A stretch of 43,007 bases of DNA, taken from contig CP070787.1 of the NCBI GenBank assembly GCA_020346745.1, forward strand, positions 1,391,268 to 1,434,274, given 5' to 3'. Made by a program: the position numbers and the translations under genes. Each line of letters starts with the position of its first letter. Within the stretch, counting starts at the first letter, position 1. The notes below the pieces were generated by a model. The model was not told the origin of the DNA. It saw only the letters and a list, made by a program, of their open reading frames with translations, and did not search any database. Below are positions 3,405-14,528 of this stretch, piece by piece. The DNA comes from Fidelibacterota bacterium (lineage in GTDB: Bacteria; Fidelibacterota; Marinisomatia; SCGC-AAA003-L08; TS1B11).

Positions 3405-4379
3405 ATGCTCTCCTATAGCGATGCCATCCGACAGGTGAAGGCGGAGAAGATCTCACCCGTATATCTCCTGGTTGGAGGTGATGCCTTCTTCGAAGATTTT
3501 TTTTCTGCCGAGGTGACGGCGCGTTTTCTACCCGAGGGCTCCAGGAAATCGGTCTACTCGTTAGATGATGATCGTGCCGAGCAGGTTTTGGCGGAATTGA
3601 GTGCCTATACCCTGTTCCAGCAGCGTCAGGTGATGGTGGTTAGACAAGTGCAACGAATTGCCGGTACGGCCAGGGATGAGCTGCTAGCCTATGTGAAAAC
3701 CCCGGACCCGGATAAATGTCTCCTGCTGATTATGGAAGAGCATCAACCGTCAAGGGGATTGCAGAAGAGTCTCGCAAAGTCCGTACCGATAGTGGATGCC
3801 CGGCCGCCATTCCCGGACAAGCTGCGATCCTGGGCTAATTATTATGCCAAGCTGAAAGGTTATACTATCCAGCCCGAAGCCCTGGAGCTGCTCATGGAAC
3901 TGGTCGGTGATTCGGCCGGACATGTGGTCGGTGAGCTCGATAAGATCTTTACTCAGCTGACGGAAGGTGAAACAGTCACACGGGAGATTGTGGAGTTACA
4001 TGTGGCCCCGGTCAAGTCATATCAGCTCTGGCAATTGCAGGAAGCTGTGGCCAGGCATGAGGCGGTCAACGCGTTGAGAATCACCGTTTCACTGATGGAA
4101 TACGGAGTCGCGCCCACGCGGATCGTTGGCAGTTTGGCCACCCTTTTTAGCCAGTTACTCTTTCACCAGACCGGTACAACGGCAAAACAGGTTTATACGG
4201 GTCTGAATAAGTCGATCACGGCACAGCTGGGCTCAATGTCTAACCACTACACGCTTAATGAGACCTTCAGCGTGCTGAGGAAACTTCTGGCTACCGATGT
4301 GAGTTTGAAATCGACCGGCATGGACCCGAACCAATTACTGACCGGGCTGGTAGCGGATATTTGCCGAGGCCAGCCATGA
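3405..4379 (+). CDS. holA: DNA polymerase III delta subunit
   Basis: This 324-aa protein matches HolA, the clamp-loader delta subunit that opens the beta sliding clamp. Seen: an N-terminal AAA-like fold typical of HolA beginning with PVYLLVGGDAFFEDFF, a middle GDSAGHVVGELDKIF segment, and the C-terminal helical domain with LWQLQEAVARHEAVNALRI. No Walker A is expected in delta and none is seen. The end overlaps the sigma gene as ATGA, so the two are probably translationally coupled. This is a usual single-copy housekeeping gene. Confidence 0.88.
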   Translation: MLSYSDAIRQVKAEKISPVYLLVGGDAFFEDFFSAEVTARFLPEGSRKSVYSLDDDRAEQVLAELSAYTLFQQRQVMVVRQVQRIAGTARDELLAYVKTPDPDKCLLLIMEEHQPSRGLQKSLAKSVPIVDARPPFPDKLRSWANYYAKLKGYTIQPEALELLMELVGDSAGHVVGELDKIFTQLTEGETVTREIVELHVAPVKSYQLWQLQEAVARHEAVNALRITVSLMEYGVAPTRIVGSLATLFSQLLFHQTGTTAKQVYTGLNKSITAQLGSMSNHYTLNETFSVLRKLLATDVSLKSTGMDPNQLLTGLVADICRGQP

Positions 4380-4969
4380 CGCCGCACCAGTTTACTGATG
4401 AAGAGCTCATCGCTCAATTTCAGGCTGGCAATGAAAACGCCTATCTGGAGATTGTCGCGCGCTTCAAGGACCGGCTGTTCACTTTTGTCTACCGGTTTGT
4501 GGGCGACCGCGACCTGGCTGAAGACCTGGTACAGGATACGCTGGTAAAAGTCTACACCCACCGGCATGCCTATCGCGAGATTGCCCGCTTCTCAACCTGG
4601 ATTTATACCATCGCCGGCAACCTGGCCCGGACCGAGCTGCGCAAGCGCAAGCGTCGGGCAACTTTCAGCATGAGTACCCTTGGATTTGGAGAAAAGGAAT
4701 ACGAGCTGCCGTCTGAGGACTATGCCCCCACTAAAGCACTGGAAGGAGAACAGACCGAAAAGGATATCCGGATGGCGCTGGCAAGATTACCACTTCATTT
4801 CCGCACCGTAATAATTTTACGCGATGTGCAGGAACTTTCTTATGAGGAGATCAGTAAAATTATGAAAATTCCGCTCGGTACCGTGAAATCCAGGGTTAAC
4901 CGTGCCCGGTTGAGACTTCAGGAAATGCTTGCTAACGTACGAACTAAAGGAGAAGAGCGCTCTGAATGA
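4376..4969 (+). CDS. ECF RNA polymerase sigma factor (sigma-70 family)
   Basis: A 197-aa extracytoplasmic-function sigma factor. Region 2 (about residues 15-85) contains the FVGDRDLAEDLVQDT helix for core and -10 recognition, and region 4 (about 130-185) contains LPLHFRTVIILRD...LSYEEISKIMKIPLGTVKSRVNRAR, the -35-binding helix-turn-helix. The ATG at 4376 overlaps the holA stop (ATGA) with GAGG at 4366-4369 as ribosome binding site; an upstream TTG at 4361 is less likely. The next gene, overlapping by ATGA, encodes its probable anti-sigma factor, so the pair likely responds to envelope stress. The inducing signal is not visible. Confidence 0.9.
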   Translation: MTPHQFTDEELIAQFQAGNENAYLEIVARFKDRLFTFVYRFVGDRDLAEDLVQDTLVKVYTHRHAYREIARFSTWIYTIAGNLARTELRKRKRRATFSMSTLGFGEKEYELPSEDYAPTKALEGEQTEKDIRMALARLPLHFRTVIILRDVQELSYEEISKIMKIPLGTVKSRVNRARLRLQEMLANVRTKGEERSE

Positions 4970-5523
4970 ATTGTTCTCAGTACCGCTTCAAAATATCACC
5001 CTATCTGGACCAGGAACTGACATTTACTGAATTGAAGATGTTCAGGGAGCATCTTGAAGGATGTCCCAACTGCGCCGAGTTAACGCTACAAATGGAGCGT
5101 ACCCAAGTGGCAATGAGGGATGAACTGCAGGCATCCCTGGCACCGGATTTTGTACCGCGTCTCGAAGCACGTATTCGAGCGGAGATCAACCGCACGCCAT
5201 CGTGGTGGCGTCAAATGACCGCCCCGCGGCTGGTGGGCTTCTCCCCGATTTCCCTAAGCGGAGCAGCCGCAGCAGCACTGGCCATCGTGGTTATCGGTGT
5301 GAGTCTTTTCCTGCCCGATTCAGCACCTCTCGTTGATCCCCCCACCAGCTCTACTCAGAATAATCCGCCGGTTATGATGACTCGCAATTCTAACCCTGCG
5401 TCCCAAGCTGCCAATCCGCTGCTTACGACTACCCCACAGGATTCCACTCCGGGTCAACGCGATAGTGTCCGGCGCGACTTCTCCCGGCAAATGAAATACG
5501 TCAATCAAGGCCGAAGACCCTAG
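4966..5523 (+). CDS. Zinc-containing anti-sigma factor (ZAS/zf-HC2 family)
   Basis: A 185-aa membrane protein. The N-terminal cytoplasmic part has the ZAS motif H29-x3-C33-x2-C36 (REHLEGCPNC) with an extra C3, typical of anti-sigma domains that clamp ECF factors. One transmembrane segment follows at about residues 97-116 (Ala/Ile/Val-rich). The C-terminal periplasmic tail is low-complexity, rich in Ser, Thr, Pro, Asn and Gln. The start overlaps the sigma stop (ATGA), so stoichiometric production by translational coupling is expected. The tail could sense envelope state or be the site of regulated proteolysis; that is inference. Confidence 0.85.
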   Translation: MNCSQYRFKISPYLDQELTFTELKMFREHLEGCPNCAELTLQMERTQVAMRDELQASLAPDFVPRLEARIRAEINRTPSWWRQMTAPRLVGFSPISLSGAAAAALAIVVIGVSLFLPDSAPLVDPPTSSTQNNPPVMMTRNSNPASQAANPLLTTTPQDSTPGQRDSVRRDFSRQMKYVNQGRRP

Positions 5524-7633: not shown

Positions 7634-8812
7634 ATGTCCGACCGCCGACTGTTTACCTCTGAATCTGTGACTGAAGGTCACCCCGATAAGCTGTGCGATC
7701 AGATTTCCGATGCTATCCTGGATGGCATCCTGGCAGATGATCCCCATGGCCGTGTGGCCTGTGAGACACTTGCGACCACCGGTCTGATCCTGGTCTCCGG
7801 CGAGATTACTACGACAACCTACGTGGATATCCCCAGCATAGTGCGGAAGACGTTGGCTGATGTTGGTTACACCCGCGCCTCATATGGTATCAGCGCGACG
7901 AAAGCGGCGGTCCTGACCAGTATTGATGAGCAGAGCCCGGAGATCGCCCAGGGCGTGGATGAATCCGATGAGCATGAGCAGGGGGCTGGAGATCAGGGAC
8001 TTATGTTCGGATTTGCCTGTGATGAGACACCAGAGCTCATGCCGGTACCGATTCTCTTAGCCCATCGACTCACAAGGCGACTGGCTGAACTGCGCAAGTC
8101 TGAGGCCCTGCCCTGGCTCAGGCCCGACGGGAAGACGCAGGTGACTGTCGAGTATGAGGGCAACAAACCGGTAGCGGTGCAGAAGGTTGTTGTTGCTACC
8201 CAGCACGATGATCTGTCGGATGCCTACCCCGACGTCAGCATGGAGCACCAGTTCATCACTCGCGAGGTGGTGGAACACGTTATTCTCCCTGTGCTGGTGG
8301 ACAGCGGACTTGACTTCAAGGAGCACTTCATCGTCAACGGCACCGGCCGCTTTGTCATGGGGGGGCCGCAGGCGGACACGGGGCTGACAGGCCGCAAGAT
8401 CATCGTCGACACGTACGGTGGCTATGCCCGTCACGGAGGGGGCGCGTTCTCTGGCAAAGATCCCTCCAAGGTAGATCGTTCCGCCGCGTATTTGGCCCGC
8501 TATATCGCCAAGAATATCGTGGGTGCGGGGCTGGCCAAACGGTGCGAAGTACAGCTGGCCTACAGTATCGGTGTTGCCGACCCTATCTCAGTCAGTGTAG
8601 ATACCTTCGAGACGGGTAAGCTCAGTGATCCGAAGATTGGCGAACTGATAAGAAAGGAATTTCCCCTCCGGCCCAGAGAAATCATCAGGGACCTGGATCT
8701 ACTTCGACCAATCTATCAAAAAACAGCCGCCTATGGGCATTTCGGGCGAGAAGAAGAAGAGTTTACCTGGGAACGCCTAGATAAGGTCGAAGCGTTGGCT
8801 AAATATCAATAA
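7634..8812 (+). CDS. metK: S-adenosylmethionine synthetase
   Basis: A 392-aa enzyme that makes S-adenosylmethionine from methionine and ATP in the cytoplasm. Seen: the ATP-binding GHPDK at residues 15-19, the GAGDQG signature at 117-122, and the glycine-rich GGGAFSGKD phosphate-binding loop near residue 270, all at normal spacing. The ATG at 7634 has AGGGGAAGG upstream. The gene stands alone, with a 175-bp leader after the previous terminator. In that leader I could not recognise the core of SAM-I, SAM-II or SAH riboswitches. Confidence 0.97.
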
Positions 8813-8939: not shown

Positions 8940-11900
8940 ATGCAACCACGAAACATGAGCAAAGAGCAACCGGAACAGGCGAAAGTCCGACCTTGGTTCG
9001 CCGTAGTAAGGGGCTTGGCGCCTGTAACGGCGCTAATCATCTTGATTGTCGCGGGTGCGTGCGAGTTTCAGGTCCTGGAGCCGTGGGATCCTCCTCGCTG
9101 GGGTGTATCCATCACCTTACCCCTTATAAATCGTACCTATTCCTTGGCCGGGCTGGCTGAAAACGATACGACTATCTCTGAGGATGCGACCAGCCGGGAA
9201 CTGCAGATCGACTTTCCCGGCAAGCTCGACACCACGACCATCGACTCCAGTATCCTGGAAGTCACTTTGCCAAGCGCAGCTTCACGAACGGATATCAATG
9301 AGCCGGCTGATGCACCCGACGCGGATGACTTTTTCGAACCGGTCGATAGAGAGGTTGAGGTTGTTATCGCCCTGGATTCCCTCCTCCGTGAGTTCAACCC
9401 GATCCTATTCGGGGATGTGGACTTTCCGGCCGACGCTGACTTCCCGATCCTGCGGAGTGTTTGGGATGCCAACGTAGCCGGTCAGGCCTTGGATAGTGAA
9501 GAGGATTTCGAAGTCTTTGACGCTGATAGTGTCTTGGATCAGAATGACTTCATCCAGGCTATCCGTTATGTCCAATTGTCGGACACTGCCACCAGCGAAT
9601 TCATTACCAGGATTGCCACACCGCAGTTTCCCACTAATGTGGATTCAATCCGAATAGCGGCTACTTCAGGCGACTATTTCAATATCCAGCAGGATACCAC
9701 TACCCTCCCACCGAATGGAGTCTTCAGGCGAGTTTCCGATATGCGCTCGGATTCCCTGGGCAGTGATATGTCTCTGGCATTGCGAATGGTGATGCCGCCG
9801 GCCGACGAGGATACGATTAAAATCCTGGCGAATACTGATCCCAGGGTCGAGATCACCATGAACTTCAGGGTGGGGGGCTTGGACAGCCTGGCCATATCCA
9901 CGGCGGAGACTCCCCTGATCGAGGAACCACCAGACCCACTGCCACTCCCGGGGGATATTCAAATTATTGAAGGGGAATTGCGTGACCCTGTAGTCGCGCC
10001 CATCAACCAGATATCCATTGCAGATCTCGGTACCAGCCTGCCCTTTGATCTGGAATTCCAGCTCTCCTTCCCGAACTTCGATTCTTTAGGCGATGGACAA
10101 AACGTTCTCACCCTGGGTCCCTATACATTGCGGGATGGGAACCCACTTATTTCCGAAGAAAGGTCGGTCGCGGGCTTTACGTTTTATAATCCTGACGGCG
10201 AAGGGCCTGTAGCCGAGTTCGAGTATGATCTTGTTGTGAATATTCTGGAACAGGATGTGGTCCTCCCACTGGATGGCGGAGAGCTGGGGGAATTCAATGC
10301 CAGCCTGGGGGTGGGAATTGACCTGGATGATCCTGCTGACGTGGAAGGCCGGCTCCATTTCGCCAGTATTACCGGCGACTTCGAAGTCTCCTTCGATGCG
10401 GTTAATACGACCATCGAAAAGATACCAACCGGCTTCGCGGGCTTTCAATTTGGACGTCTCAGTCTGAGCCTGCTGCTGCGCAACGAGATTCGGTTGCCGG
10501 TCCAACTTGACCTGCAACTCACGGGCATCACTCTGGAAGGCGACAGCGCCGCGGTGCCCATCAATCCCTATATCAATTATCCCGGCGTCCCACAAGCCAA
10601 CACACCCTCGAATATCAGTCCGCCCGCAAATAACGGGGATACAGCCTACACACTGATCGTAATGGATGAAACCTCAGTAAGGACCTATTGGCTGACACAG
10701 GGCGGAACAGACAGAAGCGCCGCCTGGGACAGCGTCATCACGCCCGCCAGCAATGGCACCATCGTGGATGTTCTTAATCTGCCTCCCGACATTATCGAGG
10801 TGTCCGGCGCTGCCGTGGTCGAAGGTGCCGGCGTCGTGGAAGCCGGCAAAGGCATCTGGGGTGATTTTCAACTGCTTGCACCTTTTGCCTTTATCCTGCC
10901 TCAAGACATATCCTTCCTGCCGGTTGATCCCATCCCCTGGGAACCTATGGATGAGTCTGCCCGCGAGCAGATCAGGACAGCCCTGCTCTCCGCCAGCCTG
11001 ACTTCGAGCGTACAGACGAAATTCCCGATTGCGGGTAAGATCTCGATGCTCGCCTCGGATGACACTATGTTTACCCTGGCCCTGGACTATCTGGATGACA
11101 TCGATGCAGGGATTCCTACTGCCGCCCGTACGGGCGACACGACCCTATATAGCACGATCCAGGAAGTCCTGGAAGCCGATTCCATCATGGACGTTGACCA
11201 GATCGTCTTCTACCCGGAGCTGTCGGGTGCCGATCAGCCTCCTACCGCGCCACAGGAGACGAAAGCCAAGCGGGTGGAGTTCATTACCACCCAGGGAGAT
11301 ACTTTCTGGATCGGCCACCTGTTCGATATGGAACTGCCTGCACCGGGAGGTGTTAATGAACTCGGCTGGGTAACCGCGCCTGGTGATACCTCCCAGGTTA
11401 TCAGCCTGGATGCCGAGCGGGTGGAATGGATTTCCTCCGATACGACCGTTTATCTCAAGACCTTTATCACTCTCTTAAGTACCGCCGGGAATGATAGCAT
11501 ACGTACGATTCAGTCAACCAATTGGATTCATTTTGCGGCCTACATCACCTTCGATCTGGCCAGTGGTGTCTTTGAAGTCGCTGAAGAGCAGGACTCCTCG
11601 GATATCGAAGTGTCCCCCATTACCAGTTTTACCCTCCATCCTGACTCCACTGCCGTTGTTGACCTGGATTCAGTCTTTACCCCTCCAACGGGGATGGAGC
11701 TCGTGGATCTTCTGATTAGCGCTTCGAGCAGCCATCGGGGAGTTGTGACGACTACCGTACAGAGGGTGAGAACCGGAACGGGTAGTCAGACCGTCATCCT
11801 GAACGTGATTCCCGTTCGTACAGGGACGGCCAAGATAACCGTTCGGGCTGATGATGATCCCGAGGACGGCATCGACCCGGTTGAGACCTCCTTCCTGGTC

Positions 11901-11981
11901 ACTATCAGGGAATCGCAGGGCACCGGTATGCCTCCAAGACCTCTGCGCTTCCGGACCTCTCAAAGTGAGATCATCAAGTGA
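8940..11981 (+). CDS. Very large beta-rich putative lipoprotein, unknown function
   Basis: 1013 aa; family not recognised. The N-terminus has a positively charged start, a hydrophobic segment at about 25-40 and a possible lipobox VAGAC with Cys41, suggesting a lipid-anchored envelope protein (the -3 residue is Ala, not the preferred Leu). The rest is acidic, rich in Asp, Thr, Ser, Pro and alternating hydrophobics, as in stacked beta-sandwich domains; the last ~110 residues look like an Ig/cadherin-type fold with GTAKITVRADDD...ETSFLVTI. There are almost no cysteines after Cys41. ATG at 8940 is used; a second in-frame ATG at 8955 is possible. The stop overlaps the GTG of the next gene (GTGA), so the two are coupled and probably work together at the outer membrane. 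Confidence 0.75.
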   Translation: MQPRNMSKEQPEQAKVRPWFAVVRGLAPVTALIILIVAGACEFQVLEPWDPPRWGVSITLPLINRTYSLAGLAENDTTISEDATSRELQIDFPGKLDTTTIDSSILEVTLPSAASRTDINEPADAPDADDFFEPVDREVEVVIALDSLLREFNPILFGDVDFPADADFPILRSVWDANVAGQALDSEEDFEVFDADSVLDQNDFIQAIRYVQLSDTATSEFITRIATPQFPTNVDSIRIAATSGDYFNIQQDTTTLPPNGVFRRVSDMRSDSLGSDMSLALRMVMPPADEDTIKILANTDPRVEITMNFRVGGLDSLAISTAETPLIEEPPDPLPLPGDIQIIEGELRDPVVAPINQISIADLGTSLPFDLEFQLSFPNFDSLGDGQNVLTLGPYTLRDGNPLISEERSVAGFTFYNPDGEGPVAEFEYDLVVNILEQDVVLPLDGGELGEFNASLGVGIDLDDPADVEGRLHFASITGDFEVSFDAVNTTIEKIPTGFAGFQFGRLSLSLLLRNEIRLPVQLDLQLTGITLEGDSAAVPINPYINYPGVPQANTPSNISPPANNGDTAYTLIVMDETSVRTYWLTQGGTDRSAAWDSVITPASNGTIVDVLNLPPDIIEVSGAAVVEGAGVVEAGKGIWGDFQLLAPFAFILPQDISFLPVDPIPWEPMDESAREQIRTALLSASLTSSVQTKFPIAGKISMLASDDTMFTLALDYLDDIDAGIPTAARTGDTTLYSTIQEVLEADSIMDVDQIVFYPELSGADQPPTAPQETKAKRVEFITTQGDTFWIGHLFDMELPAPGGVNELGWVTAPGDTSQVISLDAERVEWISSDTTVYLKTFITLLSTAGNDSIRTIQSTNWIHFAAYITFDLASGVFEVAEEQDSSDIEVSPITSFTLHPDSTAVVDLDSVFTPPTGMELVDLLISASSSHRGVVTTTVQRVRTGTGSQTVILNVIPVRTGTAKITVRADDDPEDGIDPVETSFLVTIRESQGTGMPPRPLRFRTSQSEIIK

Positions 11982-13381
11982 GACAGGGCCCTAGAGTACG
12001 GCTGCTTGGACGTTCCTTATTGCCTCTGGTTTGCCTGGGGTGGCTGGGTGCGCAGTCACCCAATCCGGATGCGCGGTCAATAGGCCTGGCCGGTGCCGTC
12101 ACCAGCCTGGCGCAGGGCGTGCATGCCGTGGGCTACAATCCTGCCAACCTGGCCTTCTCCACCAAGGACTTCAGCATGAACCTGGGTGGTTTCACCTATA
12201 CCCTTGAGAATAACATGCTGTCGATTCGCAGCTACAATGAGTTCAGCGGTGCCGATTTTATCGATACGCTTTCCGCCGATTATCAGGATAAGGCTGAGTT
12301 CCTCGCCGGTCTGCCCGATAATGGTATGAATATTCGAACCATGTTTCATCTTCCCGTGCCGGCTCTCAATTGGGCCCGGGGGATCACCGCGTTTACCAGT
12401 GAGATTGCGCTCTTTGGCAATCTGGGGCTGCCCAAGGCGTTGTTTAACCTGATGATGGAAGGCAACATCATTGGGGACAGCCTACTTCTGGATCTCAACG
12501 AAGAGTTCCAGGGAGCCGCTGAGTGGGGCTTCAGTGTAGCCATACCCACCGGTGGAGCGGCCTTCGGATTCACTCTCAAGTACCTGCAAGGATTATTTCA
12601 TCTCGGTGTAGATCAGGATTCCAGTGGAGGGTACTTCATGACCGACACCAGCGGTTTTAAAGGCGAAGGCCGCTACCTGATCAGGCAGGCTATTGGCGGT
12701 GGCGGATTCGGCCTTGATCTCGGCTTCGCAACCGAAGAGATCAACGGGTATCGGTTTGGTATTTCCCTCATTAATGCACTGGGAAGTATCCGCTGGCATG
12801 GAACCTCCCTCACTAAAGATCTTCTCGGCGGGACTATCCAGGGACTCATGCCTTGGCGCGAAAACGAATATTTCCTCTACACGTATCGCGTGAATGAGGT
12901 AACCGCCAGAAAATATATGCAGGGGGGGGCAGTGGACACCCTGTTTCAGAATGATAGCTACACCGTAGTCGAAACAGAAGCAGGACTGGTGCCCTCGGAC
13001 ACGCTGACGAATGCCGATCTGGAAGCGATCACTCCCAAGCCGTTCGTGACCGACTACCCAACCCTCTTCCGGGTGGGGGCCTCCAAACGCATCGAGAATT
13101 TTGGCCTCGTCGCCGTGGATTTACTCACCGGTTTTCGGGATCAGCTCTGGGCCTCTCAAGGATGGCAGCTGGCGGTGGGGATCGAAATCCTCGCGTCACC
13201 CAGCTTTCCCCTCAGAATGGGATTACGCTACGGCGGTATGGAAGACACGCAACTGGGAATCGGTTTCGGCATTCACAAAGGGCCGATCCAGTTCGACATG
13301 GCCTTGGCTCTTCATAATGGCATCTGGCTCCACACCACCAAGGGATTCAGTCTGGCTCTCGGGCTTACCTTGGTCCGCTAA
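11978..13381 (+). CDS. Outer-membrane beta-barrel protein, PorV/DUF5723-like
   Basis: A 467-aa exported protein with a signal peptide (hydrophobic at about 11-25, likely cleavage after LGA25). The mature N-terminus has the pattern DARSIGLAGAVTSLAQG...VGYNPANLAF seen in PorV/FadL-like and DUF5723 proteins of the FCB group, followed by many amphipathic strands and a C-terminus of alternating residues typical of a barrel. Length fits the family. GTG at 11978 overlaps the previous stop, so it is translated with the giant lipoprotein. It contains a run of eight G at 12922-12929, a possible slippage site. Roles of relatives include type IX secretion accessory functions and hydrophobic transport; no specific role can be assigned. 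Confidence 0.75.
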   Translation: MRQGPRVRLLGRSLLPLVCLGWLGAQSPNPDARSIGLAGAVTSLAQGVHAVGYNPANLAFSTKDFSMNLGGFTYTLENNMLSIRSYNEFSGADFIDTLSADYQDKAEFLAGLPDNGMNIRTMFHLPVPALNWARGITAFTSEIALFGNLGLPKALFNLMMEGNIIGDSLLLDLNEEFQGAAEWGFSVAIPTGGAAFGFTLKYLQGLFHLGVDQDSSGGYFMTDTSGFKGEGRYLIRQAIGGGGFGLDLGFATEEINGYRFGISLINALGSIRWHGTSLTKDLLGGTIQGLMPWRENEYFLYTYRVNEVTARKYMQGGAVDTLFQNDSYTVVETEAGLVPSDTLTNADLEAITPKPFVTDYPTLFRVGASKRIENFGLVAVDLLTGFRDQLWASQGWQLAVGIEILASPSFPLRMGLRYGGMEDTQLGIGFGIHKGPIQFDMALALHNGIWLHTTKGFSLALGLTLVR

Positions 13382-13436: not shown

Positions 13437-14528
13437 TCAACTCCGCAACCGCTTGAGCAGCAAGAATCCCAACGCCAGAAACAGAACGTTAGGCAGCCAG
13501 ACAGAAGCCACGGGATCAAGCACGCCTTTAAAGCCCAGGGATTGGCCCAGCTTGATGGCGACATAGTAACCAAAGATAACGAAAATGCTCATTCCGGCCC
13601 CAAATGCCAGGCTCGAGCGGGGTCGACGTACACTTAACGGCAGACCGAAGAGGACCATGATAAAGCTGGTCATGGAGAAGGCCATCTTGAAATGCATGTT
13701 CACTTCCCAGCGGGTGGGATCAATGCCATTGCGAATGAGCTGCGCCACGAAGTCCTGGAGCTCCCTGAATCGCATCTCCTCCGGTGTGACGGACATCTTT
13801 ACCAAGTCGACCGGTTTGATAGCCAGCATGAGCAGGGTATCCGTCTGCTGGGCGGCAGTGGTAATCGTGTTGCTCGTATCACTGAATGTTCTGATACGGT
13901 AGTTGAATCCACGCCAGCCTTGAGCTTCCTCATCCCACTTGAGCCTGTTGAAATCCATCCGCTGGGCAATGCGACCTTCTTTGTAGCGCTGGATGTATAC
14001 GCCATGAGCCTCCTGGTTGCGATAGTCGAACCGGTCGATGGCAATATGTTCCCTGGGTGACTGCTGGAGGAAGATATTCTGTTTTTTTACCTTGTGCTTG
14101 CGACGATAGTCACGGGCAAGGTACTCGCTCTGGACCTCGGCCTTGCGCCGCATCCCCTCTGAGACCAGTAGATCATCGAAAAAGAAGGAGACGACGCTTA
14201 TGAGCAGCCCCAGCAGGAGCAGCGAGGTGCCAATACGCCGGATGCTGAATCCCGAGGCTTTCATGGCGGTGATCTCGTTGCGCTTGTTCAATAAGCCCAT
14301 GGAAAAAAACGTGGCCAGCAGGGTGGCCATGGGCAGAGCAATGCTCACGAACCATGGCAGGGTGTAGAGGTAATACCCGATCATCGCGCGGCGGGGCATC
14401 TGAGCATCAATGAACTTGTCCAGATTCTCCACCACGTCAACTACCAGGAAGACCGTCACGAAGGCCACCATGGCGCTGAGCAGGATGCTCAGAAAGCGGG
14501 AGAGGATATAGCGGTCCAGTAGTTTCAC
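13437..14528 (-). CDS. lptG: LptF/LptG family lipopolysaccharide export permease
   Basis: A 363-aa inner-membrane protein of the YjgP/YjgQ family, part of the LptB2FG ABC transporter that extracts LPS for delivery to the outer membrane. Seen: three N-terminal membrane segments including FVTVFLVVDVVENLDKF and the coupling-helix region NEITAMKASGFSIRRI, a central soluble jelly-roll of about 150 residues, and three C-terminal membrane segments (FSMTSFIMVLFGLPLSVRR onward). It is monocistronic here; a paired LptF is not in the window. It supports a diderm with LPS. LptF versus LptG cannot be decided firmly from sequence alone. Confidence 0.85.
   Translation of the reverse strand: MKLLDRYILSRFLSILLSAMVAFVTVFLVVDVVENLDKFIDAQMPRRAMIGYYLYTLPWFVSIALPMATLLATFFSMGLLNKRNEITAMKASGFSIRRIGTSLLLLGLLISVVSFFFDDLLVSEGMRRKAEVQSEYLARDYRRKHKVKKQNIFLQQSPREHIAIDRFDYRNQEAHGVYIQRYKEGRIAQRMDFNRLKWDEEAQGWRGFNYRIRTFSDTSNTITTAAQQTDTLLMLAIKPVDLVKMSVTPEEMRFRELQDFVAQLIRNGIDPTRWEVNMHFKMAFSMTSFIMVLFGLPLSVRRPRSSLAFGAGMSIFVIFGYYVAIKLGQSLGFKGVLDPVASVWLPNVLFLALGFLLLKRLRS

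Follow-up and report, generated by a model that had tools for sequence, protein, structure and literature searches.

A large lipoprotein and a DUF5723 barrel encoded by overlapping genes form a widely conserved pair with a genomic link to the SprA translocon

The window analyzed here is a stretch of 43,007 nucleotides (nt) from the genome of a Fidelibacterota bacterium, a single contig of 3.11 Mb (CP070787.1, positions 1391268-1434274). On its plus strand lie the two genes that are the subject of this report: a gene for a large lipoprotein of 1013 amino acids (aa; 8940-11981) and, directly behind it, a gene for an outer-membrane barrel of 467 aa starting with a GTG codon (11978-13381). Stop and start codons overlap in the sequence GTGA (11978-11981). 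A preliminary description of this DNA, made from the letters alone, had reported both reading frames and their junction, and coordinates and overlap proved to be as claimed. The lipoprotein starts with the ATG at 8940, an alternative ATG at 8955 being possible, and its first 41 codons (8940-9062) specify a signal peptide and the lipobox VAGAC, with the modified Cys41 encoded at 9060-9062. The protein had been said to belong to no recognized family. This was borne out: searches of Pfam and NCBIfam returned 0 families at E≤0.1, and none of ten lipoprotein relatives scored above a Pfam cut-off, the lowest E values (0.026 for PH_alsin, 0.035 for Rtt106_N, 0.058 for DUF3712) being sub-threshold noise. 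The barrel is a member of DUF5723 (PF18990; 37.4 bits, curated cut-off 26.8), a curated family of unknown function; a literature search found no paper naming it. The nearest named barrels are those of the Candidatus Neomarinimicrobiota chromosomes CP070656.1 (76% identical) and CP070638.1 (69%).

The AlphaFold2 model of the barrel (predicted local distance difference test score, pLDDT, 83.8) predicts a FadL-superfamily fold, a FadL-like barrel with an N-terminal region. Foldseek matched the model to 1t16_A with an E value of 2.8e-10, and FadL, TodX, TbuX and CymD gave the top fold rows (Z 22-24); comparison with PorV yielded a Z of 22.7 and comparison with BamG chains 9n2d_B, 9hjm_F and 9hiv_F Z values of 18.8, 18.4 and 18.3. 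The NPA motif of FadL is kept (N54-P55-A56), the first two residues being invariant in the alignment and the third nearly so. These matches are what would be expected if the barrel took up hydrophobic molecules as a FadL-type channel, with the lipoprotein as its capture protein. However, no FadL channel is known to need a lipoprotein, and the association with SprA described below, together with the lack of a constant catabolic neighbor, is ill-suited to substrate-specific uptake; we consider this explanation rather unlikely.

When the barrel profile was compared with the sequences of the PDB, the sole match was PorV (E 0.0073), which serves the SprA translocon as its type A carrier (6H3I, 8GL6) and with which the barrel shares the FadL-type fold and the genomic link to SprA. 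Membership in the PorV/PorQ family was nevertheless rejected: the NCBIfam model PorV_fam (NF033709) gave 39.5 bits, below its cut-off of 90, whereas a separate protein of the same genome scored 208.7 bits. The latter, encoded on the plus strand of another locus (L201:5514-6578), is a clear PorV/PorQ-family protein. The part of PMC10994853 available to us describes PorV as a protein that docks on SprA and takes the cargo away from there; it mentions no coupled lipoprotein for PorV.

The AlphaFold2 model of the lipoprotein is all-beta (pLDDT 80.1, predicted template modeling score 0.54). Behind the signal peptide comes a conserved lipidated N-tail, Cys41 to Tyr67 (9060-9140, plus strand), with the pattern C-[DE]-F...P-x-W...[IL]PL...Y. 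The lipobox cysteine is the sole invariant column of a 32-row alignment covering several phyla, in which P52 and P61 are nearly invariant, and W54 and P61 are invariant in a 25-row lipoprotein alignment. The beta-rich core spans model residues 56-875 (9105-11564, plus strand). Comparing the lipoprotein profile with itself produced offset matches of residues 127-516 on 252-673 (probability 99.2; another, 99.1) and of 131-388 on 389-673 (probability 80), which we interpret as a series of some four tandem repeats, each about 130 residues long. The best fold match of the core is 4h3w_A (Z 10.3, 296 of 313 residues, placed on model residues 56-875, 11% identity), its Z value lying within 1 of that of the best immunoglobulin (Ig)-domain row. 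This chain is BDI_1231 of Parabacteroides distasonis (PDB 4H3W), an uncharacterized secreted protein that resembles the core in fold without a sequence match at E≤10; three lipoprotein profiles matched no PDB sequence at all within that limit. The only paper that a literature search found to mention 4h3w concerns, in its available part, ice in crystals. The other whole-model rows, mostly viral capsids and Ig domains, were discarded as they look like common or chance beta arrangements. The protein ends in an Ig-like domain (residues 882-993; 11583-11918, plus strand), for which VIA-align returned 7t4f_A (Z 9.6 over 88 residues) and 4uid_A (Z 9.4). In the 32-row alignment, this domain is missing from the shorter relatives.

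Conservation of the two genes as a unit was examined first within the phylum, Candidatus Neomarinimicrobiota, using the window and 40 relatives' loci, two of them paralogous pairs. A lipoprotein followed by a barrel is found in 40 of these 41 loci, the miss (L079) being a cut contig of 3.4 kb which begins with the barrel. Because start codons were assigned mechanically, overlap counts refer to possible starts: the barrel start lies 4 nt inside the lipoprotein stop in 30 of the 40 pairs, overlaps it by 1 nt in 3 and lies within 30 nt in 4, and 3 pairs have none of these arrangements. Among named Neomarinimicrobiota contigs, which overlap in species with the 41 loci and thus give no independent count, 54 of 59 carry the pair and the other 5 start either at the barrel or no more than 372 nt from it. 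Deeper loci of the phylum have it in 20 of 20 cases. Lipoprotein and barrel were detected in 40 and 43 of 60 close genomes, respectively, and a 25-row lipoprotein profile found its target in 185 of 245 phylum genomes, including 81 of the 94 with a completeness of 90% or more and a contamination of 5% or less. Alignment A1 omitted incomplete reading frames, frames whose lipobox the pattern missed, L070 and two paralogues; alignments A4 and A5 omitted short or duplicate rows and, by hand, L176, L162 and L164 (A4) and L133 (A5).

The pair also multiplies as a unit. The window genome has a second DUF5723 place, where a 551-aa barrel follows a 969-aa lipoprotein of the same family with a 4-nt overlap. 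Trees were built from 97 of 100 pairs, the other three being repeat retrievals of loci already included. In each of the two trees, that of the lipoprotein and that of the barrel, two groups of paralogues come out as monophyletic; both groups have co-duplicated. The trees share 48 well-supported splits, of 69 in the lipoprotein and 66 in the barrel tree, with 11 and 12, respectively, contradicted. Six of the deeper loci (L208, L211, L215, L216, L221, L222) have tandem double pairs, lipoprotein-barrel-lipoprotein-barrel, in which the first lipoprotein is short (about 520-570 aa) and divergent.

Beyond the phylum, we surveyed a set of 387 genomes, requested at a completeness of at least 97% and mostly from outside; genomes counted as other phyla are those related to the window's only at the level of the same domain. 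DUF5723 was detected in 72 of them, in 47 above the cut-off. From the matches of these 72, 41 places were fetched, 40 outside the phylum and one (L290) from the same class as the window. A 24-row profile built only from members of the phylum, when run over the 536 open reading frames (ORFs) of these places, gave 28 matches at E<1e-3, of which 27 directly precede the barrel and the 28th (L277) also lies upstream of one. After profile iteration, a lipoprotein was seen to adjoin the barrel at 30 of the 41 places; those without it are L252, L253, L254 (two barrels), L255, L262, L276, L285, L289, L290 and L291. Upstream of the strongest DUF5723 match (L252) lies a lipoprotein of 197 aa; it was considered as a relative and rejected, hhalign having detected no relationship (probability 0.9, E 0.06). 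The lipoprotein profile itself found its target in 47 of the 387 genomes; 38 of these, belonging to 25 families, lie outside the phylum. It added 11 outside places, where the barrel comes next in 9 (L293-L298, L300-L302) and the locus is cut in one (L299). Altogether, the pair is adjacent at 39 of 52 places fetched by either profile, nearly all in other phyla. In some lineages (L256, L258, L297, L301) a barrel frame of about 800 aa accompanies a lipoprotein of only some 350 aa; mass seems to have been shifted from one partner to the other.

The surroundings of the pair bear on whether its adjacency has functional meaning. Upstream in the window lies metK (7634-8812, plus strand) and downstream, in convergent orientation, a gene for an LptG-like permease (13437-14528, minus strand), both identified by profile matches and by relatives' loci; the two flank the pair in most phylum loci that extend far enough on either side. 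Outside the phylum, metK/ahcY or lptG still stand beside it in some genomes (L257, L263, L280, L275). The order metK-(ahcY)-pair-lptG in L257, L263 and L280 is an unusually deep synteny of genes without evident common function. An old order metK-ahcY-lipoprotein-barrel-lptG might thus have been kept by inertia, the two proteins having no common task. Yet elsewhere the outer neighbors change, to phosphotransacetylase, radical SAM, GcpE or ketoacyl synthase genes, and the pair stays, and paralogous copies at other sites of the genome keep both the arrangement and the overlap as the two groups duplicate together. Inertia is therefore a very improbable explanation. The partnership that the preliminary description had read from the shared stop/start is strongly supported on its genetic side by adjacency, joint duplication and changing outer neighbors; that the two proteins also touch each other is its conjectural side, and a quite probable one. 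Production at a fixed ratio, which the same description had taken from the junction, is likewise a conjecture.

A second association points to type IX secretion. The window genome has SprA and 82 matches to the type IX sorting domain (TIGR04183). SprA_N was found in 112 of the 387 genomes, namely in 46 of the 47 with the lipoprotein versus 66 of the 340 others (Fisher p 2e-27, kinship ignored). In the 47th lipoprotein genome (G571), the lipoprotein gene is immediately preceded by a cut ORF that matches the end of the SprA of genome G249 with 61.5% identity over 239 aa, so that all 47 have SprA, 46 by profile and 1 by the cut gene. In G249 the order is sprA-lipoprotein-barrel, with 83 nt between the first two frames; its SprA has 2182 aa and scores 804.6 bits with TIGR04189 (cut-off 200). 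G571 shows the same row, sprA being cut by the contig end. In two further genomes sprA lies 3.2 kb (G583) and 3.6 kb (G371) from the barrel, beyond two lptF/lptG-like genes. The idea of a secretion module, put forward in the preliminary description beside surface display and adhesion, thus gains backing from co-occurrence and adjacency, the tie being a genomic one. The lipoprotein was also considered as a type IX cargo and rejected as such: none of the 82 sorting-domain matches falls in it, and it matched 0 NCBIfam families.

Among systems already described, the closest in design is BamG-BamH (9N2D, 9HIV, 9HJM). There too a FadL-type barrel is joined to a lipoprotein with a conserved lipidated N-tail, which in BamH runs in a groove of BamG, as stated in the available part of PMC12611786. 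The pair could accordingly be the BamG-BamH unit of this phylum, the barrel sitting behind BamA and the lipoprotein forming an extracellular canopy. The kind of pairing and the fold class (BamG rows at Z 18.3-18.8) fit such a proposal, as do two statements in the accessible portions of the literature, that BamG and BamH occur in six of seven other FCB (Fibrobacteres-Chlorobi-Bacteroidetes) phyla (PMC12611786) and that the paralogues bamG2-bamH2 form a putative operon (PMC12578637). Against it, the barrel gave no match at E≤0.1 to the NCBIfam BamG model NF053685, which is present in the library searched, and it has no counterpart of the extended N-tail of BtBamG (residues 23-37 in the part of PMC12578637 available): residue 25 of its model aligns to BtBamG residue 37. 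The lipoprotein matched no PDB chain by sequence at E≤10, although BAM structures are in the PDB; BamH was not in the first 50 fold rows, a result that excludes nothing. The genome, moreover, has another protein with a weak BamG match, encoded at L199:4630-5859 (minus strand; NCBIfam BamG 37.8 bits, E 1.2e-9, cut-off 250). Identity with BamG-BamH was dropped on account of the missing match, the missing tail and this separate protein, and we hold it to be improbable. In gene arrangement the systems differ as well: the present pair is coupled almost everywhere, whereas bamG and bamH of Flavobacterium johnsoniae bear distant locus numbers, Fjoh_1412 and Fjoh_0823, in the source as far as available. 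The 409-aa FadL-type protein of L199 has an extended N-tail, an N-terminal insertion of 12 residues relative to the window barrel family, and is by its sequence a candidate for the BamG of the phylum.

In SusC-SusD, too, a barrel and a surface lipoprotein are encoded together. SusC, a TonB-dependent barrel, belongs to a different family, and no SusC or SusD family is listed among the Pfam and NCBIfam matches of the pair.

The established points from which we start are the two genes with their overlap, the fact that they are conserved together, the FadL fold as predicted for the barrel, the repeats and the genomic link to sprA. Our reading, to which we give an even chance of being right, is that the pair forms an undescribed complex in an outer membrane of the FCB type, constructed on the plan of BamG-BamH and active close to SprA. 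In Candidatus Neomarinimicrobiota and 25 families outside it, the two genes would provide two subunits of one complex. The acylated cysteine would anchor the lipoprotein, and its short conserved N-tail would seat on the FadL-type barrel, a placement we find slightly better than evenly probable. The four or so tandem beta repeats would project as a rod or arch, whose position outside the cell we regard as fairly likely, and preferable to one in the periplasm. Next to the SprA translocon, the complex would have an accessory role, holding large surface proteins, capping them or handing them on, by analogy with BamG carrying BamH or PorV carrying cargo; that it works in the SprA route is a proposition on which we are evenly divided.

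Several observations weigh against this reading. In one genome (G275) the pair is split: its lipoprotein (L292) has no barrel near, and the barrel (L310) follows metK-ahcY on another contig. A parting of the genes in relatives, which the preliminary description had named as grounds for giving up the partnership, thus does occur, in that one genome; otherwise the pair is kept nearly everywhere. The strongest DUF5723 scorers (G593, G588 contig 55, G530) have no relative of the window lipoprotein upstream, so the barrel family can work without it. Correlation of the two trees exceeds that of controls by a weak surplus (mirror-tree partial r given metK 0.76 for the pair versus 0.68 and 0.70 for lptG controls, 34 loci). 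The co-occurrence test treats genomes as independent of phylogeny. SprA is common without the lipoprotein, in those 66 of 340 genomes, among them the small-genome relatives G041 and G047, and hence does not need it; in the window genome the sprA loci (702567, 2547542) are far from the pair. Finally, with glutamates at +2 and +7 after the cysteine, the lipoprotein carries the acidic surface-export signature (at least two D/E in +2 to +7), but so do only 19 of the 36 lipoproteins counted in the phylum and 6 of the 27 from elsewhere, a tally made by a rough script that misreads some cysteines; the signal is one of Bacteroidota and may not hold elsewhere. Surface exposure is uncertain because of these frequencies.

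The same frequencies, together with the adjacency to sprA, would suit a lipoprotein that is an assembly factor instead of a surface-exposed rod. Tandem beta repeats and an Ig-like end would fit an extracellular rod better, and the precedent, BamH, lies outside the cell; we judge an assembly factor unlikely.

Two side observations concern SprA itself. The phylum family f6, with genomes of about 1 Mb (for example G041 and G047), has kept SprA and lacks the lipoprotein. Near 702567 the window genome has a second SprA-like ORF (L309:6187-10067) of 978 aa, matching only the later part of SprA; behind it comes a 324-aa ORF whose beginning resembles that of the 860-aa ORF beside the full sprA, and L309 is perhaps a partial duplicate of the sprA locus. 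Elsewhere in the window, an ORF at 4361-4969, probably an extracytoplasmic function (ECF) sigma factor, overlaps by 4 nt the gene of a zf-HC2 anti-sigma-like protein (4966-5523).

The suggestion that such a pair is not described held good as far as the literature searches and the Pfam and NCBIfam libraries reach. No paper joining PorV, lipoprotein and Marinimicrobia was found, and type IX secretion, FCB, SprA and phyla came together only in PMC12611786, in the part of it available. More tentatively, and with distinctly less confidence than the complex itself, we suggest that the pair is an ancestral outer-membrane module of the SprA system, a dedicated FadL-type carrier with a giant lipidated partner, its genes lying next to sprA in certain lineages. 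Many phyla other than Bacteroidota would have kept this module and the model organisms would have lost or replaced it, which would be why type IX studies never met it.

Machines made of a barrel and a lipoprotein shape the outer membrane of this large bacterial group, and the newest of them, BamG-BamH, was found only by biochemistry in Bacteroidota. The pair described here appears, from its sequences, to be a variant of that known kind, FadL-type barrel plus lipoprotein: real, widely kept and backed by good genomic arguments for a role beside SprA. It would be a second such pair, its lipoprotein family nameless in Pfam and NCBIfam, traceable across phyla and tied to the type IX translocon. As such, it offers a partner for DUF5723, a barrel family of unknown function, and a concrete candidate component of a secretion system that has been investigated almost exclusively in Bacteroidota.

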